This document shows, one piece after another, positions 1,821-21,667 of a DNA stretch of 64,000 nt. The stretch is from contig NZ_BLPG01000001.1 of the NCBI RefSeq assembly GCF_011764445.1, positions 8,015,001 through 8,079,000 of the forward strand, in the 5' to 3' direction. Every line of letters begins with the position of its first letter. The stretch's first letter is position 1. The notes under the pieces are model-generated. The model made no database searches. It was not told the DNA's origin and was given only the letters and a program-made list of their open reading frames with translations. This DNA comes from Phytohabitans rumicis. Lineage in GTDB: Bacteria > Actinomycetota > Actinomycetes > Mycobacteriales > Micromonosporaceae. The translations under genes were made by a program, and so were the position numbers.

Positions 1821-6308
<4,488 letters not shown>

Positions 6309-7144: not shown

Positions 7145-7966
7145 CTAGTCGAGGATGGACTTGAAATCGACGATCTGCTGCTTGATGCCGCGCTCGGTCG
7201 GCAGCCGCTCCACTGAGGACGCGCCGAAAAAGCCGGCCACGCCGGTGGTGTGGGCGAGGACGTAGCGGGCGTCGTCCGGCTCGGCGATGGGACCGCCGTG
7301 GCAGAGCACGATGACGTCGGGGTTGACCTCGACCGCCGCGTCGCGCATCCGCTGCACCCGCTCCGCCGACTCGGCCAGCGTCAGCGCGGTCTTCGCGCCG
7401 ATGGTCCCGCTGGTCGTCAGACCCATATGGGGTACGACGATGTCGGCACCGGCCTCGGTCATGGCCACTGTGGACTCGACGTCGAAGACGTACGGCGCGG
7501 TGAGCAGGTCGCGCTCGCGGGCCAGCCGGATCATCTCGACCTCGTGGCCGTACCCCATCCCGGTCTCTTCGAGGTTTTGCCGGAACACGCCGTCGATGAG
7601 CCCGACGGTGGGGAAGTTTTGCACGCCGGCGAAGCCGAGCCCGGCCAGCTCGTCCAGGAAGCGGCCCATCAGCCGGAACGGGTCGGTGCCGTTCACGCCG
7701 GCCAGCACGGGCGTGTCCTGGACGATCGGCAGCACCTCCCGGCTCATGTCGACGACGATCTGGTTCGCGTCGCCGTACGCCAGCAGGCCGCTGAGCGAAC
7801 CCCTACCGGCCATCCGGTACCGGCCGGAGTTGTAGATGATGATGAGGTCGACGCCGCCGGCCTCGGCGGCCTTGGCGGAGATGCCGGTGCCGGCGCCGGC
7901 CCCGATCACCGGCTGCCCGGCCGCGATGGTGGCCCGCAGCCGGGCGAGCGCGCTCGCGCGGTCCAT
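7145..7966 (-). CDS. Phosphoenolpyruvate hydrolase-family TIM-barrel protein
   Basis: A 273-residue TIM-barrel protein of the family (PF09370) related to PEP mutase and to the C-terminal half of tomato Tm-1. Recognisable segments are [20 protein letters not shown] at the start, [10 protein letters not shown] near the middle and [13 protein letters not shown] near the end. An AAGGAGG ribosome binding site (7976-7982) lies inside the end of the upstream gene, four bases away, indicating coupling to the UPF0261 gene. Catalysis in this family is poorly defined; a role in phosphonate or keto-acid chemistry is only inferred. Confidence 0.85.
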
Positions 7967-7970
7967 GCCC

Positions 7971-9215
7971 TCAAACCTCCTTGCCGATGAGTGCGTGCAG
8001 CCGGTCGGCGGCCTCGACCGCCAGCTCAGCGTCGTTGATGTGCCGCGTCGAGTCGAGCACCGACACGGCGCTGCCGCGTACCGTGTCCAGGACCGCGTCG
8101 AAGAGCGCGGCGTCGGCCGCCGGGTCGTGGAAGGCGGCGCCGTCGGTGTCCAATGCGGACACTCCGCCGCGGGGCACCACGAGCACGGTCGGCCCGGCCG
8201 CCGCGGCCAGCTTGGCGCCCACGCGGCGGCCCAGCTCCGCGTTTTCCGCGACGGTGGTACGCATCAGCGTGACGGTTGGGTTGTGGACGAAGAACGTCCG
8301 GCCGGCGAACTCGGCCGGCACGGTGTCCTCGGGGCCGAAGTTGACCATGTCGAGCGCGCCGAGGCTGACCACCTGCGGCACCCCGGCGGCCCCGGCCGCG
8401 GTGAGCCGGGCCGGTCCGGCGCTGAGCACCCCGCCCACGAGGTCGTCGGCCAACTCGGTGGTGGTCAGGTCGAGCACCCCGGCCAGCAGGCTGGAGCGGG
8501 CCAGCGCTTCGAGGGCCTTGCCGCCCGCGCCGGTCGCGTGGAACACGAGCACCTCGTACCCCAGCTCCTCCAGCCGGGCCCGGGCGGCGTCCACGGCGGG
8601 TGTGGTGACGCCGAACATCGACGCGGCGATCAGCGGCCGGTCGCCCTCCTCGGCCGCGGTGCCGGCGTGGGCGGTGGCCATGCCGGCGATCGCGGCGGCG
8701 GCGTTGCCCAGCACCGCGCGGGACACCCGGTTGATGCCGGAGATGTCCACGACGCTGTACATCATGGTGACGTCGGCGGCGCCCACGTAGGGCGAGACGT
8801 CGCCGGCGGCCATCGTCGAGACGATCAGCTTGGGCAGCCCGATCGGCAGGTCGCGGACGGCGCGCGCGGCGATCGACGAGCCGCCGCTGCCGCCGAGCGC
8901 GAGTACGCCGTCGAGCCGGCCTTCGGCGGCCAGCCCGGCGAGGACGGCCGCGGCGCCCGCACCCATCGCGGCGACGGCCGCGCCCTGGTCGTTCCCGTCG
9001 CGCAGCGCCTGGATCGTGGTGCCGGCGGACCGGGCGACCTCGTCCTGGCCGACCGCGACGGGGCCGGTGAAGCCGTCCGGCGGGCGGATCCCGGTGTCGA
9101 TGACGACCGTGTCGACGCCGTGTCCGGCCAGGCGTTGGGCCACCCACTGGTATTCGGCGCCCTTGGTGTCGAGCGTGCCGACGAGCGCGACCGCCGGCCG
9201 TATGAGTAGGGTCAC
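7971..9215 (-). CDS. Tm-1-like ATP-binding domain protein (UPF0261)
   Basis: A protein of about 414 residues homologous to the N-terminal half of tomato Tm-1. The N-terminal signature [19 protein letters not shown] and internal [20 protein letters not shown] and [13 protein letters not shown] are typical of UPF0261. It heads the minus-strand operon. The GTG at 9215 is preferred because a TTGACA / 17 bases / CAGGAT promoter ends seven bases before it, as in a leaderless mRNA. The ATG at 9224 is the alternative and adds three residues. A LacI-type operator overlaps the -35 box. Confidence 0.85.
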
Positions 9216-9222
9216 GGATTCC

Positions 9223-9251
9223 ATCCTGCGACCTACTCTGAAACGTGTCAA
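9223..9251 (-). promoter_or_regulatory. Predicted promoter of the UPF0261 operon
   Basis: Reading the minus strand: -35 TTGACA (9251-9246), a 17-base spacer, then -10 CAGGAT (9228-9223). The GTG at 9215 follows seven bases later, which would give a leaderless transcript. The operator at 9239-9250 covers part of the -35 box and spacer, so repressor binding there would block RNA polymerase. Confidence 0.5.
9239..9250. promoter_or_regulatory. LacI-type operator 1
   Basis: TGAAACGTGTCA is a near-perfect 12-base palindrome around a central ACGT and resembles operators of LacI/GalR-family repressors. It overlaps the -35 region of the minus-strand operon. The same ten bases recur 44 bp away. The LacI-like gene at 16094 is a plausible partner (inference). 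Confidence 0.55.
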
Positions 9252-9268
9252 CCGATCCGCTAAACTCC

Positions 9269-9297
9269 GTGACTGATCGACTTGAAACGTGTAAAGT
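9269..9297 (+). promoter_or_regulatory. Predicted promoter of the rhamnosidase gene
   Basis: A -35-like GTGACT (9269-9274) is separated by 17 bases from -10 TAAAGT (9292-9297). The second operator lies between and over the -10 box. A GGAAGGA ribosome binding site follows before the ATG at 9325. Confidence 0.4.
9283..9294. promoter_or_regulatory. LacI-type operator 2
   Basis: TGAAACGTGTAA repeats ten bases of operator 1 exactly, 44 bp downstream, about four helical turns. It sits in the spacer and -10 region of the rhamnosidase promoter. Two phased sites between divergent promoters suggest one repressor controls both directions, perhaps by looping. Confidence 0.5.
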
Positions 9298-9324: not shown

Positions 9325-11919
9325 ATGACCGATCCCACGCGACCGTCCGTCGAGCACCACCGGGTGCCCATCGGCATCGGCGAGCGGCGGCCGCGCCTGT
9401 CCTGGCGCGTGGACGCGCCGCCCGGCTGGCACCAGACGGGGTACGAGATCGACGTGGTCCGCGACGGCAGGTCCACGGTCGTGGCCGTCGACTCGCCCGA
9501 TCAGGTGCTCGTGCCCTGGCCCGGTGAGCCGCTGCGGTCCCGGGAGCGGGTCACCGTGCGGGTGCGCGTCCGGGGCGCGGACGGCGCGTACTCCGGCTGG
9601 AGCCCGCCCACCGCGATCGAGGCGGGGCTGCTGGAGCCGGGTGACTGGCGGGCGGTCCCGGTCGGCGCGGACTGGCCGGAGGAGGCCGAGTCCGACGAAC
9701 GCCGGCCCGCGCTGGTACGGCGTGCCTTCGAGGTCGGCGGTGAGGTGGTCGCCGCGCGCCTCTACGCCACCGCGCACGGCCTGTACGAGATCGAGATCAA
9801 CGGTCGGCGGGTCGGCGACGACGCGATGTCGCCCGGCTGGACCGCCTACCCGCAGCGGCTGCGCTACTACACGTACGACGTCACCGGGCACCTGCGCGCC
9901 GGCGCCAACGCGATCGGCTCGTGGCTCGGCGACGGCTGGTACCGCGGGCGGCTCGGCTGGCGCGGCGGCTTCCGCAACCTCTTCGGCGCCGACCTGTCGC
10001 TGCTCGCCCAGCTCGAGATCACGTACGCGGACGGCCGCCGCCAGGTGGTGGCCACCGACCCCCGGTGGCGGGCGGCGCCCGGCCCGATCGTGCGGTCCGG
10101 CAACTACGACGGCGAGGTCTACGACGCCCGGGACGAGCTGACCGGCTGGTCAGCCCCGGGGTACGACGACGAGGGCTGGACCCCGGTGCGGGTGGGGCAG
10201 CGCGACCCGGCGACGCTGGTCGCGCCGATGGGACCGCCGGTCCGCGCGACCGACGAGATCCGGCCGGTGGCGGTGCTGCGTACGCCGGGCGGGCGCCGGG
10301 TGCTCGACTTCGGGCAGAACCTGGTCGGCCGGCCGCGGATCCGGGTCCGCGGCGCGCGCGGTGACACGGTCACGCTGCGCACCGCGGAGGTCATGCAGGA
10401 CGGCGAGGTGTACCGGCGGCCGTTGCGCGACGCGGAGTCCACCGACGTGTACGTCCTGGCCGGCGCCGGGGTGGAGGAGTGGGAGCCGCGGTTCACCTTC
10501 CACGGCTTCCGGTACGTCGACGTGGACGGCTGGCCGGGCGACCTCGACGCGGCGGTGGCGGCCGGCGACGTGGTGGCCCGGGTCTACCACACCGACATGA
10601 CCCGCACCGGCTGGTTCGAGTGCTCTGAGCCGCTGCTCAACCGCCTGCATGACAACGTGGTCTGGAGCATGCGCGGCAACTTCCTGGACATCCCGACGGA
10701 CTGTCCACAAAGGGACGAGCGGGTCGGCTGGACCGGCGACATCCAGGTCTTCGGCCCGACCGCGGCGTACCTTTACGACTGCGCCGGCATGCTCGCCTCC
10801 TGGCTGGTCGACGTCGCGGCCGAGCAGCTGCCGGACGGCACCGTGCCCTGGTACGTGCCGGTCATCCCGGCGCACCACATGTGGACACCGATCCGGCCGG
10901 GTGCCGGCTGGGGCGACGTCGCGGTACTGCTGCCGTGGACGCTGTACGAGCGGTACGGCGACGTGGCGATGCTGGCCCGGCAGTACCCGAGCGCCAAGGC
11001 GTGGGTCGACCTCGTCGACCGGCTCGCCGGCCCGGACCACCTGTGGGACGAGGGGTTCCAACTCGGCGACTGGCTCGACCCGAGCGCGCCCGCCGACGAT
11101 CCCGCGGCCGCGGCGACCGACCGGTACCTGGTGGCCACCGCGCACTTCGCGTGGTCGGCGAGGCGGTTGGCCGACATGGCCGGGGTGCTCGGCGAGGCGG
11201 CCGACGCGGAGCGGTACGCGCGGCTGGCCGGCGCGGTGCGGCGGGCGTTCCAGCGGCGGTACGTGGTCGGACCCGGCCGGCTCACCAGCGACACGCAGAC
11301 GGCGTACGCGCTGGCCGTCGCGTTCGACCTGGTACCCGCCGGCGAGATCGGCGCGTGCGGCGCCCGGCTGGCCGAGTTGGTCGCCGCCGGCGGCAACCGG
11401 ATCGGCACCGGCTTTCTCGGCACCCCGCTGGTCGCCGACGCGCTGACCCGCACCGGTCACCTGGACACCGCGTACGACCTGGTGCTGCAGCGGGATTGCC
11501 CGTCCTGGCTGTACCCGGTGACCCAGGGCGCCACCACGATCTGGGAACGGTGGGACAGCATGCTGACTGACGGCACGGTCAACCCCGGGCAGATGACGTC
11601 GTTCAACCACTACGCGTTCGGCGCGGTCGCCGACTGGCTACATCGGACGGTGGCCGGGGTGGCCCCGGCGGCGCCCGGGTACCGCGAGATCCTGTTCCGG
11701 CCGCGGCCGGGCGGTGGCCTCACGCACGCGTCGGCCGCCCACGACACGCCGTACGGGCGGGCCGCCATCGCGTGGGTCCTGGCCGCCGACGGCACGCTCA
11801 CCGTGGACGTCACCGTGCCGAGCGGCACCACCGCCGTCCTCGACCTGGCCGGTCAGGAGCCGCGCACCCTCGGCCCCGGCACCCACCGTGAATTAGGGAA
11901 AGCCATTGACGGTAATTGA
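9325..11919 (+). CDS. Alpha-L-rhamnosidase, glycoside hydrolase family 78
   Basis: An 864-residue intracellular GH78 enzyme. Order: N-terminal fibronectin-III-like and jelly-roll domains, an (alpha/alpha)6 barrel from about residue 400, and a C-terminal beta-sandwich. The motif TDCPQRDERVGWTGD (from residue 458) carries the acidic catalytic centre, with Asp464 and Glu465 as expected. It removes terminal rhamnose from rhamnogalacturonan fragments or plant glycosides. The last codons are unusually AT-rich and include a TTA leucine codon (11893-11895), probably because the next gene's promoter overlaps them. It diverges from the UPF0261 operon across a two-operator region. Confidence 0.93.
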   Translation: MTDPTRPSVEHHRVPIGIGERRPRLSWRVDAPPGWHQTGYEIDVVRDGRSTVVAVDSPDQVLVPWPGEPLRSRERVTVRVRVRGADGAYSGWSPPTAIEAGLLEPGDWRAVPVGADWPEEAESDERRPALVRRAFEVGGEVVAARLYATAHGLYEIEINGRRVGDDAMSPGWTAYPQRLRYYTYDVTGHLRAGANAIGSWLGDGWYRGRLGWRGGFRNLFGADLSLLAQLEITYADGRRQVVATDPRWRAAPGPIVRSGNYDGEVYDARDELTGWSAPGYDDEGWTPVRVGQRDPATLVAPMGPPVRATDEIRPVAVLRTPGGRRVLDFGQNLVGRPRIRVRGARGDTVTLRTAEVMQDGEVYRRPLRDAESTDVYVLAGAGVEEWEPRFTFHGFRYVDVDGWPGDLDAAVAAGDVVARVYHTDMTRTGWFECSEPLLNRLHDNVVWSMRGNFLDIPTDCPQRDERVGWTGDIQVFGPTAAYLYDCAGMLASWLVDVAAEQLPDGTVPWYVPVIPAHHMWTPIRPGAGWGDVAVLLPWTLYERYGDVAMLARQYPSAKAWVDLVDRLAGPDHLWDEGFQLGDWLDPSAPADDPAAAATDRYLVATAHFAWSARRLADMAGVLGEAADAERYARLAGAVRRAFQRRYVVGPGRLTSDTQTAYALAVAFDLVPAGEIGACGARLAELVAAGGNRIGTGFLGTPLVADALTRTGHLDTAYDLVLQRDCPSWLYPVTQGATTIWERWDSMLTDGTVNPGQMTSFNHYAFGAVADWLHRTVAGVAPAAPGYREILFRPRPGGGLTHASAAHDTPYGRAAIAWVLAADGTLTVDVTVPSGTTAVLDLAGQEPRTLGPGTHRELGKAIDGN

Positions 11920-11971: not shown

Positions 11972-13426
11972 ATGCGTAGAAGATCAGTTCTGACCCTCGC
12001 CGCCGTCGGTGCCGCGCTGGTGCCGGCGACCATCCTGCTGGCCATCCGACCCGCCGACGCAGCCGCCGATCCCGCCGCCGGCGGCACCTACACCGTCGTC
12101 GCGGGCGCGAGCGGCAAGTGCCTGGAGGTCGCCGGCGGCTCGGTCGACAACGGCGCCCTGCTGCAACAGGCGACCTGCGCCGCCGGCGCCACGCAGCAGC
12201 AGTGGCGCGTCGTGGCCAGCGCCGGCCGGTACAACCTCGTCAACGTCAAGAGCACCCGGTGCGCGGACGTCCCGTCCAGCTCCACCGCCTCGGGCGTGCA
12301 GCTACAGCAGTGGGGCTGCGGCGACGGCACCAAGGTCAACCAACTGTGGTCGTTCGCCGCGTCGAGCGCGGCGGCCGGCAAGTTCCGCATCGCCAGCGGC
12401 GTGTCCAGCCTGTGCGTCAGCGACCGGGACGGCTCCACCGCGAGCGGCAACCCGGTCATCCAGGAGACCTGCGCCGACGTCGCCCGGATGCAGTGGACGT
12501 TCAACCTCGTCGGCGGTACGCCGGCGCCGGGTGTGCCGTACGGGAATGCGCCGGACGGGTTCGCGCAGGGCGTGACCGGCGGCGCGGGCGGCCAGACCGT
12601 AACGGTGACCACGCAGGCGCAGCTCAACCAGTACGTGACCGCCAGCACCCCGTACGTCATCCGGGTCGCCGCGACGATCAACATCAGCCCGAAGGGCACC
12701 GAGCTGCGGGTCGCGTCGAACAAGACGATCATCGGTGTCGGGACCAGCGGCCACATCGTCGGCGGCGGGTTCTTCCTCGCGGCCGGGGTCAGCAACGTCA
12801 TCATCCGCAACCTGACCATCCGGGACACGCTGATGCCCGACGACGACCCCGGCGACGACGCGTACGACTACGACGCCATCCAGCTGGACACCGCCAACCG
12901 CATCTGGATCGACCACAATCGACTGTCCAGGATGAACGACGGCCTCATCGACAGCCGCAAGGACACCACCAACCTGACCGTGTCCTGGAACCACTTGAAC
13001 AACAACAACAAGACCTTCGGGATCGGTTGGACCGAAAACGTCACCGCGCGGATCACCATCCACCACAACTGGTTCCAGAACACCGTCACCCGCAACCCGA
13101 GCGGGGACAACATCGCGAACCTGCACATGTACAACAACTACCTGCAGAACTGCTCCTCGTACGGCAACTACGTGCGCGGCCTGACCAAGGCCGTCATCGA
13201 AAACAGCTACTACGAGAACGTGCGCAACCCGTACTACGTGGAGGCCGGTGAGCTGGTGCAGCGCGGCAACATCACCGTCAACAGCCCCTGGGACTCGGGG
13301 AAGGTCACCTCCAAGGGCTCGGCGTTCAACCCGAGCAGCTTCTACTCGTACACCCTGCACCCGGCCGCCGACGTGCCCGCGCTGCTGCGCCAGCACACCG
13401 GCCCGCAAGCCAGCATCGGGGTCTGA
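11972..13426 (+). CDS. Secreted pectate lyase (PL1) with N-terminal ricin-type lectin
   Basis: A 484-residue secreted enzyme. The signal peptide (MRRRSVLTLAAVGAAL... ending ADA) covers residues 1-30. A CBM13/ricin beta-trefoil spans about 36-180, with repeated QQW motifs, and a PL1 parallel beta-helix spans about 190-484. Motifs WIDHNRLSRMNDGLID and IHHNWFQNT are typical of the calcium and substrate sites. The catalytic-arginine region reads RNPSGDN from Arg374, so the second Arg of the classic RxPxxR is an Asp (379). It cleaves de-esterified polygalacturonate. The pectinesterase gene starts three bases after its stop. Confidence 0.92.
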   Translation: MRRRSVLTLAAVGAALVPATILLAIRPADAAADPAAGGTYTVVAGASGKCLEVAGGSVDNGALLQQATCAAGATQQQWRVVASAGRYNLVNVKSTRCADVPSSSTASGVQLQQWGCGDGTKVNQLWSFAASSAAAGKFRIASGVSSLCVSDRDGSTASGNPVIQETCADVARMQWTFNLVGGTPAPGVPYGNAPDGFAQGVTGGAGGQTVTVTTQAQLNQYVTASTPYVIRVAATINISPKGTELRVASNKTIIGVGTSGHIVGGGFFLAAGVSNVIIRNLTIRDTLMPDDDPGDDAYDYDAIQLDTANRIWIDHNRLSRMNDGLIDSRKDTTNLTVSWNHLNNNNKTFGIGWTENVTARITIHHNWFQNTVTRNPSGDNIANLHMYNNYLQNCSSYGNYVRGLTKAVIENSYYENVRNPYYVEAGELVQRGNITVNSPWDSGKVTSKGSAFNPSSFYSYTLHPAADVPALLRQHTGPQASIGV

Positions 13427-13428
13427 CC

Positions 13429-14859
13429 ATGCGGATCAGACCATTCTTGGTACGCCGTGGCGGCGCCCTCGCCGCCCTGGCGCTGCTGGTACCGGCGGCC
13501 GTCGTCTTCGCCGCCGGGCTCTCCGAGGCCGCGGCGACCCCGGTCGACGGCGGCGTCTATACCGTCGTCCCCGCCGCCAGCGGCAAGTGCGTCGAGGTGC
13601 CGGCCGGGTCCACCGCGAGCGGCACCCGGCTGACCCAGGCCGCATGCGAGGCCGGGGCGATCCGTCAACAGTGGAGGGTCGTGGCCAACTCCGGCCGCTT
13701 CCACCTCGTCAACGTCAACAGCAACCAGTGCATGGACGTACCCGGTGGCGCCGCTACCTCGGGGCTGCAACTGCAGCAGTGGGGCTGCGGCGCCGCGCAG
13801 AACAATCAACTGTGGACGTTCACCGCCTCGGCGGCGGCCGCCGGGAAGTACCGCATCGCCAGCGCGGCCACCTCGATGTGCGTGAGCGACAAGGACGGCT
13901 CCACCGCCGGCAACAACCCGATCGTGCAGGAGGGCTGCGCCGACGTCGCCCGCATGCAGTTCGCGTTCAACCTCGTCGGCTCGGCGTCCACCCCGACCGT
14001 GGCCGCGGACGGCACGGGCCTCTACCGGACCGTGCAGGCCGCCATCGACGCGGTGCCGGCGAACAACACGACCCGGCGGGTCATCACGATCAAGGCGGGC
14101 ACCTACCGGGAGATCGTGACGGTCCCGTCGAACAAGCCGTTCATCACCCTCCAAGGGCTGGGGTCGTCGGCCGGCAACACGGTCATCGTCAACAACCACA
14201 GCTCCGCCGGCGGCTGGGGGACGTCGGGCAGCGCCACCGTCTTCGTCAACGGCCGCGACTTCGTCGCGACCAACCTGACCATGGCGAACGACTACGGCGA
14301 GGGCAGCCAGGCGGTGGCGGCCAACCTGAACGCCGACCGGCTGGTCTTCACCAACGTGCGCTTCCTCGGCAACCAGGACACGCTGCTGGTCAACAACAAC
14401 GCCCGCGCGTACGTCGCGAACTCCTACGTCGAGGGCACGGTGGACTTCGTCTTCGGCGGCGGCACGGCGGTCTTCAACGCCAGCACGATCTACGAGAAGC
14501 GCAGCACCGGCGGGCCGATCACCGCGGCGGCCACGGACCCGGCCAAGACGTACGGGCTGCTGTTCTACAAGTGCACGGTCACCGGCGCGGCGAACAACGT
14601 CACCGGACTGGGCCGCCCGTGGGGCGCCAGCGCGCAGGTGCTGTACCGCGAGTCCAACCTGAGCGCGACCATCAAGACCGCCCAGCCCTGGTCCGACATG
14701 TCAGCCAACCCGTGGCAGAACGCGCGGTTCTCCGAGTACCGCAACACCGGTGCGGGCGCGGGCGTCAACGGCAACCGGCCGCAGATGAGCGACGCGACCG
14801 CGGCCAACTACACGCCCCAGAGGTACCTCGCCGGCACCGACGGCTGGAACCCGATGTAG
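13429..14859 (+). CDS. Secreted pectin methylesterase (CE8) with N-terminal ricin-type lectin
   Basis: A 476-residue secreted enzyme. Signal peptide residues 1-35, ricin-type lectin about 40-185, CE8 beta-helix about 190-476. Catalytic residues are visible: Asp317 (QDTLL), Asp339 (GTVDFVFGG) and Arg396 (GLGRPWG). It removes methyl esters from homogalacturonan, making substrate for the lyase just upstream. The lectin domain is clearly paralogous to that of the lyase, which suggests duplication of a module within the locus. The two genes are separated by two bases and are surely co-transcribed. Confidence 0.93.
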   Translation: MRIRPFLVRRGGALAALALLVPAAVVFAAGLSEAAATPVDGGVYTVVPAASGKCVEVPAGSTASGTRLTQAACEAGAIRQQWRVVANSGRFHLVNVNSNQCMDVPGGAATSGLQLQQWGCGAAQNNQLWTFTASAAAAGKYRIASAATSMCVSDKDGSTAGNNPIVQEGCADVARMQFAFNLVGSASTPTVAADGTGLYRTVQAAIDAVPANNTTRRVITIKAGTYREIVTVPSNKPFITLQGLGSSAGNTVIVNNHSSAGGWGTSGSATVFVNGRDFVATNLTMANDYGEGSQAVAANLNADRLVFTNVRFLGNQDTLLVNNNARAYVANSYVEGTVDFVFGGGTAVFNASTIYEKRSTGGPITAAATDPAKTYGLLFYKCTVTGAANNVTGLGRPWGASAQVLYRESNLSATIKTAQPWSDMSANPWQNARFSEYRNTGAGAGVNGNRPQMSDATAANYTPQRYLAGTDGWNPM

Positions 14860-14877: not shown

Positions 14878-16086
14878 GTGAGTTGGCTTGAGCTGCCGCT
14901 GGACACCCCGTTCGGCCTGGCGAACCTGCCCTACGGCGTCTTCAGCCGCGAGGAGGGGGACCGCCGGGTCGGGGTCGCCGTCGGCGACGCGGTGCTGGAC
15001 CTGTCCGCGCTGGCCGAGCGGCTCGGCGCGGGGTGGGCCCCGCTGGTGGCCGGGCCGGTGCTCAACCCGCTGCTCGCGGCCGGGCCGGCCACCTGGCGGG
15101 AGGTCCGCGAGCAGATCGGCGAGTGGCTGGGCGAGGCACGGCGTGCGGACGCCGTCCGCCGGCACCTGGTGCCGGCGGACGGGCTCCGGATGTACCTGCC
15201 GTTCGAGGTGGCCGACTACGTCGACTTCTACTCGTCCCGGCACCACGCCGAGAACGTCGGCCGGATGTTCCGCCCCGACTCCGCGCCGCTCACGCCGAAC
15301 TGGACGCACCTGCCGATCGGGTACCACGGGCGGGCCGGCACCGTCGTCGTGTCCGGCACCGAGGTCGTCCGCCCGCAGGGGCAGCGCAAGGCGCCCGACG
15401 AGCCGGCCCCGGCGTTCGGCCCCACCCGGCGCCTGGACATCGAGGCCGAGGTCGGCTTCGTGGTCGGGGTCCCATCCACCCTCGGCGAACCGGTGCCGCT
15501 GGCGGCGTTCGAAGACCACGTCTTCGGCGCCTGCCTGGTCAACGACTGGTCCGCCCGCGACGTGCAGGCATGGGAGTACGTGCCGCTCGGCCCGTTCCTC
15601 GGCAAGTCGTTCGCCACGTCCGTGTCGCCGTGGATCGTCCCGCTCGCCGCCCTGCAGGCCGCCCGGGTGGCGCCGCCGGCCCGCGACCCGCGGCCGCTGC
15701 CGTACCTGCGCGACGAGGCCGCGCCGTGGGGCCTGGACCTCGCCCTGGAGGTACGCCTCAACGGGCACGTGATCGCCCGGCCGCCGTTCGCCACGATGTA
15801 CTGGACGGCCGCCCAGCAACTCGCCCACCTGACCGTGAACGGGGCATCGCTGCGCACGGGGGACCTCTTCGCCTCCGGCACCGTCAGCGGCCCCGAGCCG
15901 GACCAGCGCGGCTCGCTCCTCGAACTGACCTGGAACGGCCGCGACCCGCTGACGCTGCCCGGCGGCGAGGCCCGCACCTTCCTGGAGGACGGCGACGAGG
16001 TCACCATCACCGCCACCGCACCCGGCCCCGGCGGCCAGCGCATCGGCTTCGGCGAGGTACGCGGCCGGGTCGCCCCCTCCCGTTGA
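14878..16086 (+). CDS. fahA: Fumarylacetoacetase
   Basis: A 402-residue enzyme of about the usual length. It has the N-terminal SH3-like FAH domain (residues 1-115) and a C-terminal beta-roll with metal-ligand segments FYSSRHHAENVGRMF and VNDWSARDVQAWEYVPLGPF. It hydrolyses fumarylacetoacetate to fumarate and acetoacetate, the last step of tyrosine/homogentisate breakdown. The GTG at 14878 is chosen because the conserved N-terminal segment begins there. No other tyrosine-pathway gene is adjacent. Converges with the LacI-type gene. Confidence 0.92.
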   Translation: MSWLELPLDTPFGLANLPYGVFSREEGDRRVGVAVGDAVLDLSALAERLGAGWAPLVAGPVLNPLLAAGPATWREVREQIGEWLGEARRADAVRRHLVPADGLRMYLPFEVADYVDFYSSRHHAENVGRMFRPDSAPLTPNWTHLPIGYHGRAGTVVVSGTEVVRPQGQRKAPDEPAPAFGPTRRLDIEAEVGFVVGVPSTLGEPVPLAAFEDHVFGACLVNDWSARDVQAWEYVPLGPFLGKSFATSVSPWIVPLAALQAARVAPPARDPRPLPYLRDEAAPWGLDLALEVRLNGHVIARPPFATMYWTAAQQLAHLTVNGASLRTGDLFASGTVSGPEPDQRGSLLELTWNGRDPLTLPGGEARTFLEDGDEVTITATAPGPGGQRIGFGEVRGRVAPSR

Positions 16087-16093
16087 CGGTGTC

Positions 16094-17395
16094 TCAGAAA
16101 CGATCGGCGGTGGCAGGGATCGTTTCGGCAGCGGGCGGAGCGGTGCTGTCCCGGACCACCAGGGCGGTGGCCAGCTCGATGTGGGTCTGCGTGATCGCCT
16201 CGCCCGCGGCCAAGGCCAGGACCATCCTGGCGGCGGTGGCCCCCATCTCGGCGAACGGCTGCCGCACAGTGGTCATGGGCGGCCCGCACCAGCGCGCGTA
16301 CGAGATGTCGTCGAAGCCGACCACGCTGAGGTCGTGCGGGATGCGCGCGCCGGCCTGCCGGGCCGCCTCGTAGACGCCGAACGCCTGCAGGTCGTTGCCG
16401 CACAGCACCGCCGTCGGCGGGTCGGGCAGGCGCAGCAGCTCCCGGCCGTGGCTGAGCCCGTCCTCGAACGAGAACCACAGCCCGGCGCGGAGCAGGCGCT
16501 CGTCCAGCGGCATCCCGGTGGCCGCCAGCGCCGCCCGCGCGCCCTCCAGCCGGGCCCGCGCGCACACGCGTTCCAATGGTCCGGTGATCACCGCGATCCC
16601 GCGGTGGCCGAGATCCAGCAGGTGTTGGGCGGCGGCGAAGGCGCCGCGCCGGTTGGCCGCCGCCACCGAGGGAACGGGCTGCAGCGGCTCGCTGGTGGGG
16701 TCGACCGCCACCAGCGGGATCGCGCTGGCGTCCAGCAGGCCGTGCTGCTCGGGCATCGCGCCGGTGTGCACGGCGATGACGCCGGTCGGGCGGCGGGCCA
16801 GCAGGTCCTGGGCCCAGCTGCGCCCGGTCGACGCCTCCCGCAACGCGTCCGTGAAGCCGACGGCCAGGCCGTGCCCGACGGCGACCTGCTTCACGCCCCG
16901 CATGATCTCGACCGTCAGGTGGCTCATCCCGCCGTAGAAGACCACCTCCACGCAGGCGGCCCGCGCGACCTTCTCCGGGCGCCGGTAGCCGCGCTCGCGC
17001 AGCAGATCCTCCACCCGCCGGCGGGTGTCCGGTGCCACGCCGGAGCGCCCGTTGAGCACCTTCGACACGGTAGGCGGGGAGACGCCCGCCAGCCTCGCGA
17101 TCGTCGCGACCGTCAGCGTGCCGCGGGATCGCCGACCGGCCGATCCCGCCGGCGGCGCACCGGGCCCGGTCGCGCGCTCGCCGTCGGCGCCAGGGTCTCC
17201 CGGCGCCCGGCGCTGCGACGCCTCACGCAGCAGGCGGGCGCGCACCTCCTCGGCCTCCCGGATCGCCCGTGGCCCGGCGGGGACCGTCTGCACGAGGTAC
17301 TGCCGCTTCTTCGAGACCGGATCGACCCCGGCGTACACCCGCACCCGCAGCGACCCACTCGGCAGGGTCTCGATCTCACCGCGCGCCCGCGACAT
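16094..17395 (-). CDS. LacI-family regulator with a fused N-terminal integrase arm-type DNA-binding domain
   Basis: A 433-residue protein in one uninterrupted frame. Residues 1-63 (LPSGSLRVRVYAGVDPVSKK and the following helix REAEEVRARLL) look like the arm-site-binding domain at the start of actinobacterial tyrosine integrases. A Pro/Gly-rich linker spans 64-92. Residues 94-140 are a LacI helix-turn-helix with hinge (VATIARLAGVSPPTVSKVLN), and 145-400 a sugar-sensing periplasmic-binding fold ending in VVGFDDISYARWC. It therefore carries two DNA-binding domains. It lies 12 bases after the WD40 NTPase gene and near the pectin and rhamnose genes, whose TGAAACG-type operators it could bind (inference). 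Confidence 0.85.
   Translation of the reverse strand: MSRARGEIETLPSGSLRVRVYAGVDPVSKKRQYLVQTVPAGPRAIREAEEVRARLLREASQRRAPGDPGADGERATGPGAPPAGSAGRRSRGTLTVATIARLAGVSPPTVSKVLNGRSGVAPDTRRRVEDLLRERGYRRPEKVARAACVEVVFYGGMSHLTVEIMRGVKQVAVGHGLAVGFTDALREASTGRSWAQDLLARRPTGVIAVHTGAMPEQHGLLDASAIPLVAVDPTSEPLQPVPSVAAANRRGAFAAAQHLLDLGHRGIAVITGPLERVCARARLEGARAALAATGMPLDERLLRAGLWFSFEDGLSHGRELLRLPDPPTAVLCGNDLQAFGVYEAARQAGARIPHDLSVVGFDDISYARWCGPPMTTVRQPFAEMGATAARMVLALAAGEAITQTHIELATALVVRDSTAPPAAETIPATADRF
16097..16126. terminator. Hairpin at the fahA/LacI convergence
   Basis: Nine-base perfect arms GAAACGATC (16097-16105) and GATCGTTTC (16118-16126) with a 12-base loop, inside the last codons of the LacI-type gene and 11 bases after the fahA stop. 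It could end fahA transcription. No U-tract is present, as is common in actinobacteria. An operator role cannot be excluded. Confidence 0.35.
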
Positions 17396-17407
17396 GGCCG
17401 TACCGTA

Positions 17408-20400
17408 CTAGCAGGACCGGTGATCGCCCAGTACGCCGCAGAGCCGGTCGACGGCCTGCGGGACGTCCAGCGTCCACAGCCCCACCGACGCGCCGGCCGC
17501 CGCGGTGGCCAGCGTGCCGCCGTCGGGCGCGAAGTCGACCGCGTTGAGCAGGCTGAACTGCCCGGTGAGGTTGGCCGAGAGCGCGCCGGTGCGGACGTCC
17601 CAGAGCCGGACGACCCGGTCGCTCTTGGTGATGGTGGCCAGGGTGGCGCCGTCCGGCGAGAACACCGCTTCCCGGATCGTGGCGGGATGCTCGGCGAACT
17701 CCCGCCAGCCGCCGCTGCCGTCGAGCCGCCACAGCCGTACCGAACGCCCGGTGCCGACCACCGCCAGGCTGCGGTTGTCCGGGCTGACCGTCAGGTCCAG
17801 CACCTGCTCGTCGCCCAGCGGCACGCTCGCCAACTCGCTCATATCGTCGGCACGCCACCGGCGCAGCACCGCGTCCGCCCGGGTCTCGGTGGCCGAGAGC
17901 AGCTCCAGGTCGTACGTGGCGGCGAGCAGCTGCGCCCCGTCGCGGGTGAAGGTGATCGCGCTGGTACCGGCCGAGCCCAGGTCGAGGGCGCGGCGCTCGG
18001 TCCCGGTGCGGGCGTCCCAGACGTGCAGGACGTACTCCGGGCCGGCCTCCTCCTCGGTGGTCGCGATGCCCTCCAGCGGCCGGCCCGCCGCCACGGCGAG
18101 GGTGCCCCCGTCCGGCGCGAACGCCAGCGACTCCGGCCGCAGCGGCGCGATGCTGAAGCGATGCCGTTCCCGGCCGTCGGCGTCCCACAGATGGACGGTG
18201 CCGGCGGCCGTGGTGGTGGCCAGCGTGCCATCCGGTGACCAGGCGATGTCCTCGACCGCCGACCCGTGGGGGATCGTCGCGACGACCGCGTGGGAGGTGG
18301 TGTCCCACAGCCGGACCACCCCGTCGGTGGCGGCGGTGGCGAGCCGGCGCCCGGTGGGGTCGAACCGCGCGTCGAACACGGCGGCCGTGTGCGGCAGCCA
18401 CGCCGTGGCCCGCTGCCACAGGATCGTCGAGTCGTCGATGCCGGTGGCGGCGACCACCTTGCCGTTGGCCGCGACCGCGACGTCGAGCGGCGTGCCGTCG
18501 AACCCGACGTAGGAGGTCAGCGGCACGCCGGTGCTCGCGTCCCACGCGGCCAGGTCGCGGCCGCCGCCGGTGGCCAGCAGGTATCCGTCCGGGGTGTACG
18601 CCACCTGCCCGACCGTGCCACCGTCGAGCCGGTGCAGGGTGCGCAGCGGCGCGCCGTCGGGCAGCCGCCAGATCCGGACGTCGCCGTCCACCCCCGCGGC
18701 GGCCACCTCCCCGGTGGGGAGAAGGCCAGCGGTATCGCGAACTCCCCCTGGTCGAGGTGCAGGTCGATGACCCGGGCGCCGTCGGACAGGCGCCACACCC
18801 GGATGGTGCCGCCGGTCGGCAGCCCGGCCGCCAGGTACCGGCCGTCGGGGCTGACCGCCAGGTCGGACACGATGTCGCCGACCGGCAACTCGGCCGCGGT
18901 GGCGCCGGTGCGGGCGTCCAGGAGCTTGATGACCGGTTTTTCCGCGGCGCTGAACCCGAAGGCGGCCAGCCGGCCGTCCGGCAGCCAGGTGGCGAAGCCG
19001 ACCGCGGGCAGCACCCGGATCAGCTGGCCGGTGTCGGCGGCCCAGACCCGTACGCCGTCCCGCTCCAGCGCGGCGGTGGCCAGCATGCTGTCGTCGGGTG
19101 CGAACGCCAGCGACGTGACCTGCTTACCGTGGCCGGTCAGCTCCCGCATCGTGCGGTGGTCGGCACCGTCCCACAGCCGTACGGTGCCGTCGCCGTGACC
19201 GACCGCCGCGCGCGAGCCGTCGCTGCTGAGCGCCACGGCGATGCCGCCGGGCTGGCTGCCCAGCCGCCCGGTGAAGGACATCATCTGCGCGGACAGCAGC
19301 GCGCCGCGCGCCTCCGGCGTGTGGCTGGTCCGCCAGGCGTCCAGCGCCAGCCCCATCGCCCGCGCCTGGTCGCCTTCCGCGCTGACCAGCGACTCGGCGG
19401 CGTACTGGCGGGACAGCGCGTCGTCGGCCCGCCGCTGCGCCTCGGCCCGCTGCTCCACCGCGAACCCGCCGGCGCCCAACGCGACCACGAGCGCGGCCGC
19501 CAGCCCCGCCACCAGCCGGCGCAGCCGCCGACCGCGCCGCCGCTCGGTCGCCAGCACCACCTCGGCGGCCCGCTCGCTGGCCACCAGGAACCGCTGCTCG
19601 ACCTCGCCGACGTCGGCTCGCCCCGCCGCCCAGTCCTGGGCCGCGGCCAGCCGGGCGCCGCGGTAGAGGACGTCGCCGTCCTCATTGGACTCCACCCAGT
19701 AGTACGCCGCCTCGGCCAGCCGCTGCCGCGTCACGATCGCCTGGCGGTCCTCCTCGACCCAGTTCGCCAGGCGGGGCCACGCGCTCAGCAGCGCCTCGTG
19801 GCTGATCTCGACGGTGTTTTCGTCGGCGGTGACCAGCCGGGCCTGGACCAACCGGTCGAGCACCGCCGGCGTCATGCTGGACCGCGGCCCGCGGCGGCGT
19901 ACCGCGCCGGCCCCGTCGACGATCGCGACCAGGCCGAGCAGCCCGGCCCGCAACCGGGCCTGGTCGCCGCCGTCGAGCGAAACGTAGATGCGCTCGGCCG
20001 TGTCCGCCACGGCGTTGCGGACCCCGCCCGCGGCCCGGTATCCCTCGATGGTGAGCCGGTGGCCTGCCCGCCGCAGCCAGGTGCTGCGCAGGGCGTGGGC
20101 CAGCAGCGGCACCGCGCCCGACGGGTAGCCGCCGTCCCGGGCGCCGAGGTCGGCCAGCAGCAGCTCCACCAGGCCGGCCTCGAGCTCCAGGCCGGCCCGC
20201 TCGGCCGGGCGGACCACCGCGTCGCGCAGGTCGTCCATCCCCAGTGGACTGACCACGAACGGCCCGGCGGCCAGCGCCGGCAACAGCGGCCGCAGCCGGG
20301 TGCACTGCGGGAAGAAGTCCGACCGTACGGCCAGCACGACCAGCGCCGGCCCGGCACTGGCCAGCGCGGTGGCGAACATTTCCCGCTCGGCGGGGTCCGC

Positions 20401-21573
20401 GCACAGCGTGAACAGCTCCTCGAACTGGTCGATCACCACCACGAGGCGGGCCCGGTCGTCGTCGACTATGCCGGCCTGCGCGGCCAGCGCGCCGTACGCG
20501 TCCGGGGCGTCCCGCAGCTGCCGCAGCGCGTCCACCGCGGACACTCCGGCGAGCGCCGCGGTACGCGCGGCCAGCTCCGTCATCGGCCGGGCGCCGGGCG
20601 TCATCAGCAGCCACGGCCACGCCCCCGAACCGGCCGCCGGCAGGCCGCCCCGCGCGACGGCGGGCAGCAGGCCGGCGCGTACCAGTGAGGACTTGCCGAC
20701 GCCGGACGCGCCGGTGACGATGAGCGGGCCGCCCCCGGTCAGCTGCTCCGCCAGGCGGGCCAGCAGCTCCGCCGTCGGCGTCTCCCGGCCGAAGAACCAC
20801 TCCTCGTCCTCCGGCTGGAAGCTGGCCAGGCCCGGGAACGGGGAGGCCGCCAACGGATCCGGCGGGGTGGTCGCCGCCGTGGCCGGCGGGGACGCCTCGG
20901 GCAGCGCGGCGACCGGCCCGCGCAGCACCTCCTGCCGCAGCTGGGTGACGGCGACGAACACCCGCCGGGTCAGGTCGACCTGCTCGCGGTGCACGCTGTT
21001 CTGCACCGCGACGTCCTCCTGCAGCCCGTCCAGCGCGGCCACCGCGTCCCGGACCATCCAGCGCAGCTCGTCGACCTCGACACCGAGCACCGACACCGCC
21101 GCCGCCAGCTGCTGCCGCAGCTCCTGGCTGTCCTCACTGGACTCGGCGAACGCCACCGCGACCGCGTCGACGTGCCGTAGCACCTGGCTCACCTCGGCAC
21201 GCAGCGCCCGCGCCCGCTCGTCGTCCGCCGCGAGCACCGGTCCGAGCGCCTCGGCCACCGCGTCCCGCCACTGCTCGACCGTAGGCTGCGGCGTGCGGCG
21301 CCGCACGCGGTTCGCGGTCTCCGACAGCAACGCGCCGAAGTGCCCCGCGCCGATCGCGCCGAGCTGCCCGAGCAGCGCCGTGTACGCCGCGCCGGCGCCC
21401 AGGGTCACCGCCGCCACCGGCGCGACCGCGGCCGCGACCAGCAGAGCCAGGACGGTGTACGGCGTCGTGCGGGTGGCCCGCAGCCCGGCGCTCCGCACCC
21501 AGGCCCGGACCCCGCCACGCGCCCGCTCGACGGCGGCGTCCTGGCCGGGATCCTGATATTCCTCTGGCGGCAC
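17408..21573 (-). CDS. nSTAND1 NTPase with WD40 repeats (single-base frame break)
   Basis: A 1388-residue protein if one base is restored. Order: a hydrophobic segment (about 38-75), coiled regions, an nSTAND1 NTPase with Walker A GASGVGKSS (Lys294) and Walker B LVVVIDQFEELF (Asp382), a second membrane segment (LVAGLAAALVVALGAGGFAV), then WD40 propeller repeats to the C terminus. The frame breaks at a CCCC run (plus strand GGGG 18716-18719): adding one base joins LAFSP to TGEVAAAG within one WD40 blade. The start is the GTG at 21573. Such proteins act as membrane-linked sensors or signalling ATPases; the ligand is unknown. Confidence 0.8.
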
Positions 21574-21667
21574 CCATCGATTCTGCCCGAAGCCTGCAAC
21601 GCAATGGGGAGCCGGCCGGCACCTAATCCCGGAGGGATCGCACTGATCCAGCATTCAGGGAGGCTCT

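Follow-up and report, generated by a model that had tools for sequence, protein, structure and literature searches.

The described systems closest to the gene treated here are the LacI/GalR regulators, among which autoregulation is common, and the tyrosine integrases that carry an arm-binding domain. With RbsR, CcpA, CelR and PurR the gene product shares a complete helix-turn-helix and a sugar-type effector domain, but unlike them it has an extra N-terminal domain on a variable linker, and the promoters of its relatives are of the integrase type. With the integrases, the fusions share this N-terminal domain, a leaderless-type start, an inverted repeat over the ATG and, in the case of the closest ones, the repeat TGGAGCYA, whereas they have no match to the integrase catalytic domain and their loci contain no tRNA gene, with the exception of one (L104), in which it lies about 5 kb away. 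Transcription control by a compact DNA-binding domain of sheet plus helix, which is thought to be kin to mobile-element domains, is also known from the plant AP2/ERF and apicomplexan ApiAP2 proteins; these differ from the fusion in being eukaryotic and having no LacI module, and we know of no co-captured sites in their case.

With reference to the literature, the available part of PMC8138268 places actinobacterial tyrosine integrases with an arm-binding domain in the IntTn916 subgroup with the pSAM2 cluster, and on our reading of that part the integrases found in this study belong to the same subgroup. No published description of an arm domain-LacI fusion was found in limited open-access literature searches, and LacI is not named in the accessible portion of PMC8987985.

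The fusion gene and its N-terminal domain

In the window, by which we mean the whole 64,000-nucleotide stretch of Phytohabitans rumicis DNA that was analysed, the fusion gene lies on the minus strand at 16094..17395 as an open frame of 433 aa, with LacI (PF00356, E 1.2e-11) and Peripla_BP_3 (PF13377, E 2e-36) both over the Pfam cut-off, so that the LacI/GalR domain order is present. On the same strand, the integrase-type arm-binding domain (residues 1-63; 17207..17395) is followed by a linker (residues 64-92; 17120..17206) which is variable in alignment length, by the LacI helix-turn-helix and hinge (residues 93-139; 16979..17119; Pfam LacI at 99-138) and by an effector-binding domain (residues 148-421; 16133..16954; Peripla_BP_3 at 256-418 and Peripla_BP_1 at 162-406), for which the Foldseek matches are RbsR, CcpA, CelR and PurR. 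The AlphaFold model gives the arm domain strands at residues 7-10, 16-24 and 31-38 and a helix at 44-63, with a mean pLDDT per ten residues of 84-95 across residues 11-60, and it leaves the linker disordered, with pLDDT below 50 at residues 67-91. The original prediction that one frame joins an arm domain to a complete LacI regulator is borne out, and so is the absence of the integrase catalytic domain, as Phage_integrase has no Pfam match in the window protein at E up to 10; two different DNA-recognition modules, the arm domain and the LacI helix-turn-helix, appear to stand in one protein, as was also foreseen. A gene-call artefact merging two genes was considered; it is ruled out by the single frame conserved in relatives and is also countered by a stop codon that lies in frame 15 bp before the start of the window's fusion gene.

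Compared directly with the N-termini of tRNA-associated actinobacterial tyrosine integrases, which were found in related genomes with a 63-aa query and a profile, residues 1-63 show 39-72% identity over about 50-60 residues, the range being 67-72% for the integrases found by DNA pattern (n=4) and 39-65% for the protein-found ones with near-full alignment (n=18). Residues 1-92 alone match nothing in Pfam, PHROGs or NCBIfam, and the curated families could therefore not confirm the integrase resemblance. Pfam Arm-DNA-bind_4 does not match the window domain, and in the family its best E was 0.012, below the cut-off, with 4 of 38 members. A tblastn search with the 66-aa N-terminus in phage and plasmid records gave nothing at E up to 1, the arm profile had only two matches among PDB sequences, neither credible (E 0.48 and 9.5), and in VIA-align 2 the arm-domain model scored no better against 3rmp and 3jtz, both arm-domain entries, than against unrelated rows. 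Pfam and fold searches by themselves do not file the domain as arm-binding, and its assignment as such rests on homology to integrases. The proposed likeness to an arm-site domain accordingly stands by direct comparison while the curated libraries are silent; the profile search that had been suggested for the N-terminus does find tyrosine integrases. As to structure, the predicted fold is βββα, and Foldseek returned no match for the arm-domain model at E 0.001 or better. We regard the fusion of an integrase-type N-terminal domain to a LacI sugar regulator as confirmed at the level of sequence.

Relatives, rarity and selection

A scan of genome contigs yielded 26 loci, 14 of which (L006-L019, from Nonomuraea, Saccharothrix, Virgisporangium, Glycomyces, Plantactinospora and a MAG) share the fusion, while seven (L020-L026) hold close unfused LacI genes and five are remote. 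The seven, the nearest relatives outside the fused group, begin just before the LacI helix-turn-helix. The 63-aa query matched 14 of 41 genomes searched, of which six carry fusions, namely the window genome and L032-L036 (re-read with flanks as L078-L082), and the remainder carry integrases or fragments. With one more locus (L104, genome G430), the fusion set comprises 21 genes from at least four families: the window, L006-L019, L078-L082 and L104. Orthologues with the same fusion therefore exist and do not all start at the LacI part, and the expected rarity also holds, because in class-wide samples the fusion was present in 2 of 394 genomes, the window's own counted. The view that a mobile-element domain was taken into sugar regulation agrees with what appears to be an integrase-type N-terminal domain added to a LacI sugar regulator. 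Two paralogous fusions (L011 and L012) were noticed in the single genome of Glycomyces dulcitolivorans, each beside a GH62-type gene (called by Pfam for L011 and by similarity cluster for L012), and the fusion gene of L080 (G005) shows an apparent frame change near the C-terminus of its LacI part.

In the LacI tree (67 rows), all 21 fused proteins fall on one side of a branch (100/95) amid unfused LacI proteins, which is most simply read as a single fusion event. In the tree built from arm domains (43 rows, 66 columns only) the fusions, too, all lie to one side of a single branch (94/95), and this tree cannot place them inside as against beside the TGGAGC integrases. Transfer of the fusion between families after its origin is possible.

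Across ten fusion pairs, the arm domain has a dN of 0.04-0.13 and a dS of 0.19-0.81, giving a dN/dS of 0.06-0.35, and the LacI part lies at about 0.16-0.25, compared with 0.26-1.22 for the linker (residues 58-92; nine computable pairs, six of them at 0.8 or more, on an uncertain linker alignment). Between the window and Nonomuraea the ratios, which are averages over both branches, are 0.19 for the arm domain, 0.19 for the LacI part and 0.46 for the linker. The low ratio of the arm domain indicates that it is constrained, and as judged from these substitutions, purifying selection acts on it and much less on the linker.

Repeats at integrase and fusion promoters

ARAGORN detected a tRNA gene in 30 of 31 integrase stretches (30 places, as G060 occurs twice), its end being typically about 75-150 bp before the integrase start and about 460 bp in L111. 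Upstream of the integrase start, a 9-mer repeated 12 bp apart (at most one mismatch) was observed in 27 of 36 loci, while no other spacing from 9 to 30 exceeded 3 of 36; when the sequences were shuffled in 30 rounds, the 12-bp pair never appeared in more than 2 of 36. As L272-L276 were chosen by a pattern containing the 12-bp spacing, the 27 are not fully independent, and the count used is that of the protein-found integrases, 23 of 31, against 12 of 102 control windows, a control value that codon periodicity raises at spacing 12; L131 is the same place as L112, and the duplicate was left out of the integrase counts. The repeat sequence differs from element to element (CGTGGCAC, CGTGGTGC, CGTGACAC, TTGGGCATG, GTGGAATAC), and we propose the pair between the tRNA gene and the integrase start as a candidate general arm site of element-specific sequence. 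Phage_integrase was present in all four integrases scanned by Pfam, and three of these four, which are tRNA-associated integrases from among loci L107-L139 and L272-L276, end in a GntR-type winged helix.

TGGAGC repeats were noticed in seven integrase loci, comprising G060 and G013 (protein-found, both broken) and L272-L276 (found by DNA pattern). L272, L274 and L276 have long open frames that match Pfam Phage_integrase, and L273 is truncated; a full-length arm domain is present in four of the five, with the high identity to the window's given above. In L272, L274 and L276 the order of tRNA gene, direct pair, TANNNT, GGCTCC and ATG equals the layout of the fusions. Counted from printed sequences (and from the first frame in the frame-broken L109 and L133), Glu7 is found in 7/7 TGGAGC-repeat integrase loci, 21/21 fusions and 1/29 other integrase loci, the lone exception (L137) having TGGGGC repeats by eye and eight of the 29 having no detected 12-bp pair. 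Since the seven loci are related, this is an association and not a series of independent events, and position 7 may be considered a candidate specificity residue of the arm domain.

At the fusions, exact TGGAGCYA sites in the 20 loci other than the window number 50 in the interval -130 to +4 (2,700 bp), with 13 more spread over the 218,793 bp that remain (Fisher p about 1e-83), a count that overstates independence because the loci share ancestry and many of the copies were inherited. Of the 20 promoters, 19 have one exact site or more, L018 having near-matches only. Direct copies recur near -64, -52 and -31, and an inverted copy, GGCTCCATG, sits exactly at the start codon, over the ATG, in 15 of 21 fusion genes. 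The 12-bp pair as defined for integrases occurs in 10 of 21 fusions, the others showing spacings of 10-11 or 21-24 bp or weaker copies. TANNNT at -12..-7 precedes 20 of the 21 fusion genes, the window included (L017 is one base off), as against 26 of 315 called genes; some unfused LacI genes likewise have TANNNT before the start. So close to the start codon, the hexamer suggests a leaderless fusion mRNA, in which case the inverted site would cover the transcription start.

In searches by DNA pattern alone, TGGAGCYA pairs gave 11 matches in 61 genomes, ten of which were examined (all but a second place in G003). Three are at fusions (one of them new, in G430), one is at an arm-domain remnant (G013), one is a cluster before a GH43-like gene in G002, and those in G437, G433, G001 and G031 have no arm domain within 8-12 kb around. 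The match in G019 consists of two TGGAGCCA sites 18 bp apart (L099 8246-8270), with the truncated N-terminus of an integrase at a distance of about 700 bp. A three-site pattern gave 27 matches in 200 genomes, nine at arm-domain genes (three LacI fusions and six of integrase type) and 18 without, and is specific rather than sensitive, as it matched only two of the nine known fusion genomes in that sample. Among 396 genomes of the phylum, a looser pattern matched 12 times; three of these matches were examined, namely the G008 fusion, L146 and L151, the last two having no arm domain. When 397 genomes of the order were searched with a stricter pattern, the G013 remnant was the only match, and at least the sampled fusions of G008 and G016 were missed. 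Among viral contigs, 93 stretches fit the DNA pattern, with an arm domain in none of the 93.

The window copy retains the -10-like hexamer of leaderless type, TACGGT (17402..17407, minus strand, 6 nt before the ATG), recognised from the TANNNT count in relatives, and has no TGGAGCYA upstream; the arm sites of its relatives are missing there. In the position which they occupy in relatives, the 3' end of a WD40-like frame lies 12 bp upstream of the fusion start. This frame belongs to an nSTAND1/WD40 gene at 17408-21654 that is apparently split by a frame change (overlapping ORFs 18517-21654 and 17408-18796, the latter judged WD40-like by eye). The pair search in 61 genomes and the three-site search in 200 found no match in the window genome. 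A further pair search of that genome gave six matches, compared with 25 for a control pattern, five of them inside called genes; the sixth, a site pair at C2:622372, was rejected as an arm array, since it lies at an aldehyde dehydrogenase promoter with its own longer repeat. These searches gave no convincing TGGAGCYA array elsewhere in the window genome, and it is the domain and the hexamer that remain.

Hydrolase neighbourhood, proposed regulation and alternatives

In the window, the fusion gene closes a pectin/rhamnogalacturonan-type locus which, by Pfam, comprises a GH2 beta-galactosidase-like enzyme (2785..5499, plus strand; a putative target region), cupins, PEP_hydrolase-like and UPF0261 genes (7145..9224, minus), a GH78 alpha-L-rhamnosidase (9325..11919, plus; a putative target), a pectate lyase and a pectinesterase, both with ricin-type lectin domains (11972..14859, plus; Pfam and ORFs; putative targets), and a fumarylacetoacetate hydrolase (FAA) family enzyme (14878..16086, plus). 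Where the FAA hydrolase gene and the fusion gene converge, an inverted repeat, GAAACGATC/GATCGTTTC at 16097-16126, extends across the ends of both and is perhaps a terminator hairpin. The divergent UPF0261/GH78 promoter contains two GAAACGTGT repeats 44 bp apart (9240..9292, plus), which are the only GAAACGTG copies on the plus strand of the 64-kb window, with no reverse copy, CACGTTTC, in it. These repeats may be LacI-type operators of the window protein, an uncertain assignment; as to the sites at 9239-9294 that had been proposed for binding assays with the N-terminal domain, GAAACGTGT is unlike the inferred arm motif TGGAGCYA, and operators of a helix-turn-helix module are more plausible.

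Pfam on ten genes neighbouring other fusions revealed GH62 (L006, L011), GH115 (L007), GH30-type (L010, L013, L016, L019) and GH127 (L078), the rest having ricin-type lectin domains only (L008) or being a helix-turn-helix gene (L016, second neighbour). Other neighbours were assigned by similarity cluster only, except that one gene in L078 was judged GH43-like by eye; since the simple caller placed some gene starts wrongly and got the strand of 17505-18512 wrong, the neighbourhood calls are approximate. The palindrome TCGAAANNTTTCGA, taken from promoters of four related Saccharothrix loci, occurs nine times at up to two mismatches in 238 kb of 20 loci, eight times upstream of hydrolase-type genes (seven loci: L007, L013, L015-L019); in L016 and L018, where the fusion gene is divergent, the copies precede this gene as well. 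Owing to its derivation, only L016, L018 and L019 (1-2 mismatches) are independent support; of nine palindrome patterns counted, it alone was concentrated at genes of interest, and no copy lies in the 2-31 kb of the window that were scanned.

We consider it probable that the LacI part controls neighbouring plant-polysaccharide hydrolases while the captured arm domain binds TGGAGCYA and represses its own promoter. A LacI/GalR regulator of secreted hydrolases would have gained the 5' end of a tyrosine-integrase gene, with its leaderless-type promoter, arm sites, start codon and arm domain, and would thereby have come to hold two DNA-recognition modules. What the sequences themselves show is the homology, the single group, the co-occurrence of sites and domain and the purifying selection on the latter; the capture apparently took place once. 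The helix-turn-helix would bind palindromes at hydrolase promoters (TCGAAANNTTTCGA in some species) and be released by a sugar ligand, while the arm domain would bind TGGAGCYA at the fusion's own promoter, including the inverted copy over the presumed start and the ATG, and repress it, as it probably once did for the integrase gene. The arm module would keep the amount of regulator small in a way that does not depend on the hydrolase operators; the identity of the ligand and any cross-talk between the modules are inferred parts of the proposal. In the window copy the arm domain persists and the arm sites of its own promoter are gone.

The arrays might instead be half-sites of the LacI helix-turn-helix, with the arm domain a passive extension. 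This would suit a family in which autoregulation is frequent, and juxtaposed inverted copies of the type GCTCCATGGAGC do occur at four promoters (L006, L011, L012, L079); yet L020-L026, with a near-identical helix-turn-helix, and five more unfused LacI loci contain no TGGAGCYA (0 sites in the 146,779 bp of these 12), the same array stands at integrases without any LacI domain, and the copies are mostly direct repeats and not palindromes, which makes the half-site reading highly improbable. It is very unlikely that domain and sites are mere leftovers of the fusion event that no longer have a function: the window promoter has lost its sites and L018 keeps only near-matches, but the sites are retained in 19 of the 20 other loci across several families, and the dN/dS of the arm domain (0.06-0.35) lies against 0.26-1.22 for the linker. 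Least credence is given to binding of the arrays by another mobile-element factor, either an excisionase or the GntR domain C-terminal in many integrases; although that domain ends three of the four scanned integrases, the L108 integrase without it still has the 12-bp pair, the fusions keep the array with no GntR domain in the alignment, and arm-domain residue 7 goes with the repeat sequence.

A composite or looping regulator, in which one oligomer bridges the hydrolase operator and the fusion promoter or adjacent sites of one promoter, is rather unlikely, although several loci have the fusion gene next to, or divergent from, a hydrolase-type gene. As for the composite or looped sites that were originally suggested as possible, the candidate arm sites stand mainly on the fusion's own promoter and the LacI-like palindromes (7 of 20 loci) at hydrolase promoters; apart from the two genomes named next, arm sites away from the fusion promoter do not rise above background, and their spacing followed no rule. 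The idea stays alive because two genomes of the window's genus have arm-like site clusters near hydrolase-type genes: in G002 (L078 186-390) about 290-490 bp before the called start of the GH43-like gene adjoining the fusion, and in G005 (L080 2735-2845) between a hydrolase-type gene (cluster c1) and a transporter gene. These clusters also make a redeployment of arm sites at hydrolase targets possible in some species. Beside the preferred reading of a hydrolase regulator with a self-repressing arm module, we hold tentatively, at somewhat under even chances, that a self-regulating unit of a mobile element, made up of an operator array, a leaderless promoter and the DNA-binding domain that fits them, was captured whole and may now be a second, independent recognition system of a sugar repressor, tying its own and the hydrolase promoters into one circuit, with arm sites redeployed in some species.

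For one actinobacterial integrase group, this study predicts arm sites in the form of repeats 12 bp apart between the tRNA and the integrase gene, and it offers position 7 of the arm domain as a predicted, candidate specificity residue. In this bacterial example a host regulator appears to have received both a DNA-binding domain and its cognate sites from a mobile element, and because both were apparently donated, the origin of a new regulatory circuit may be readable from sequence.
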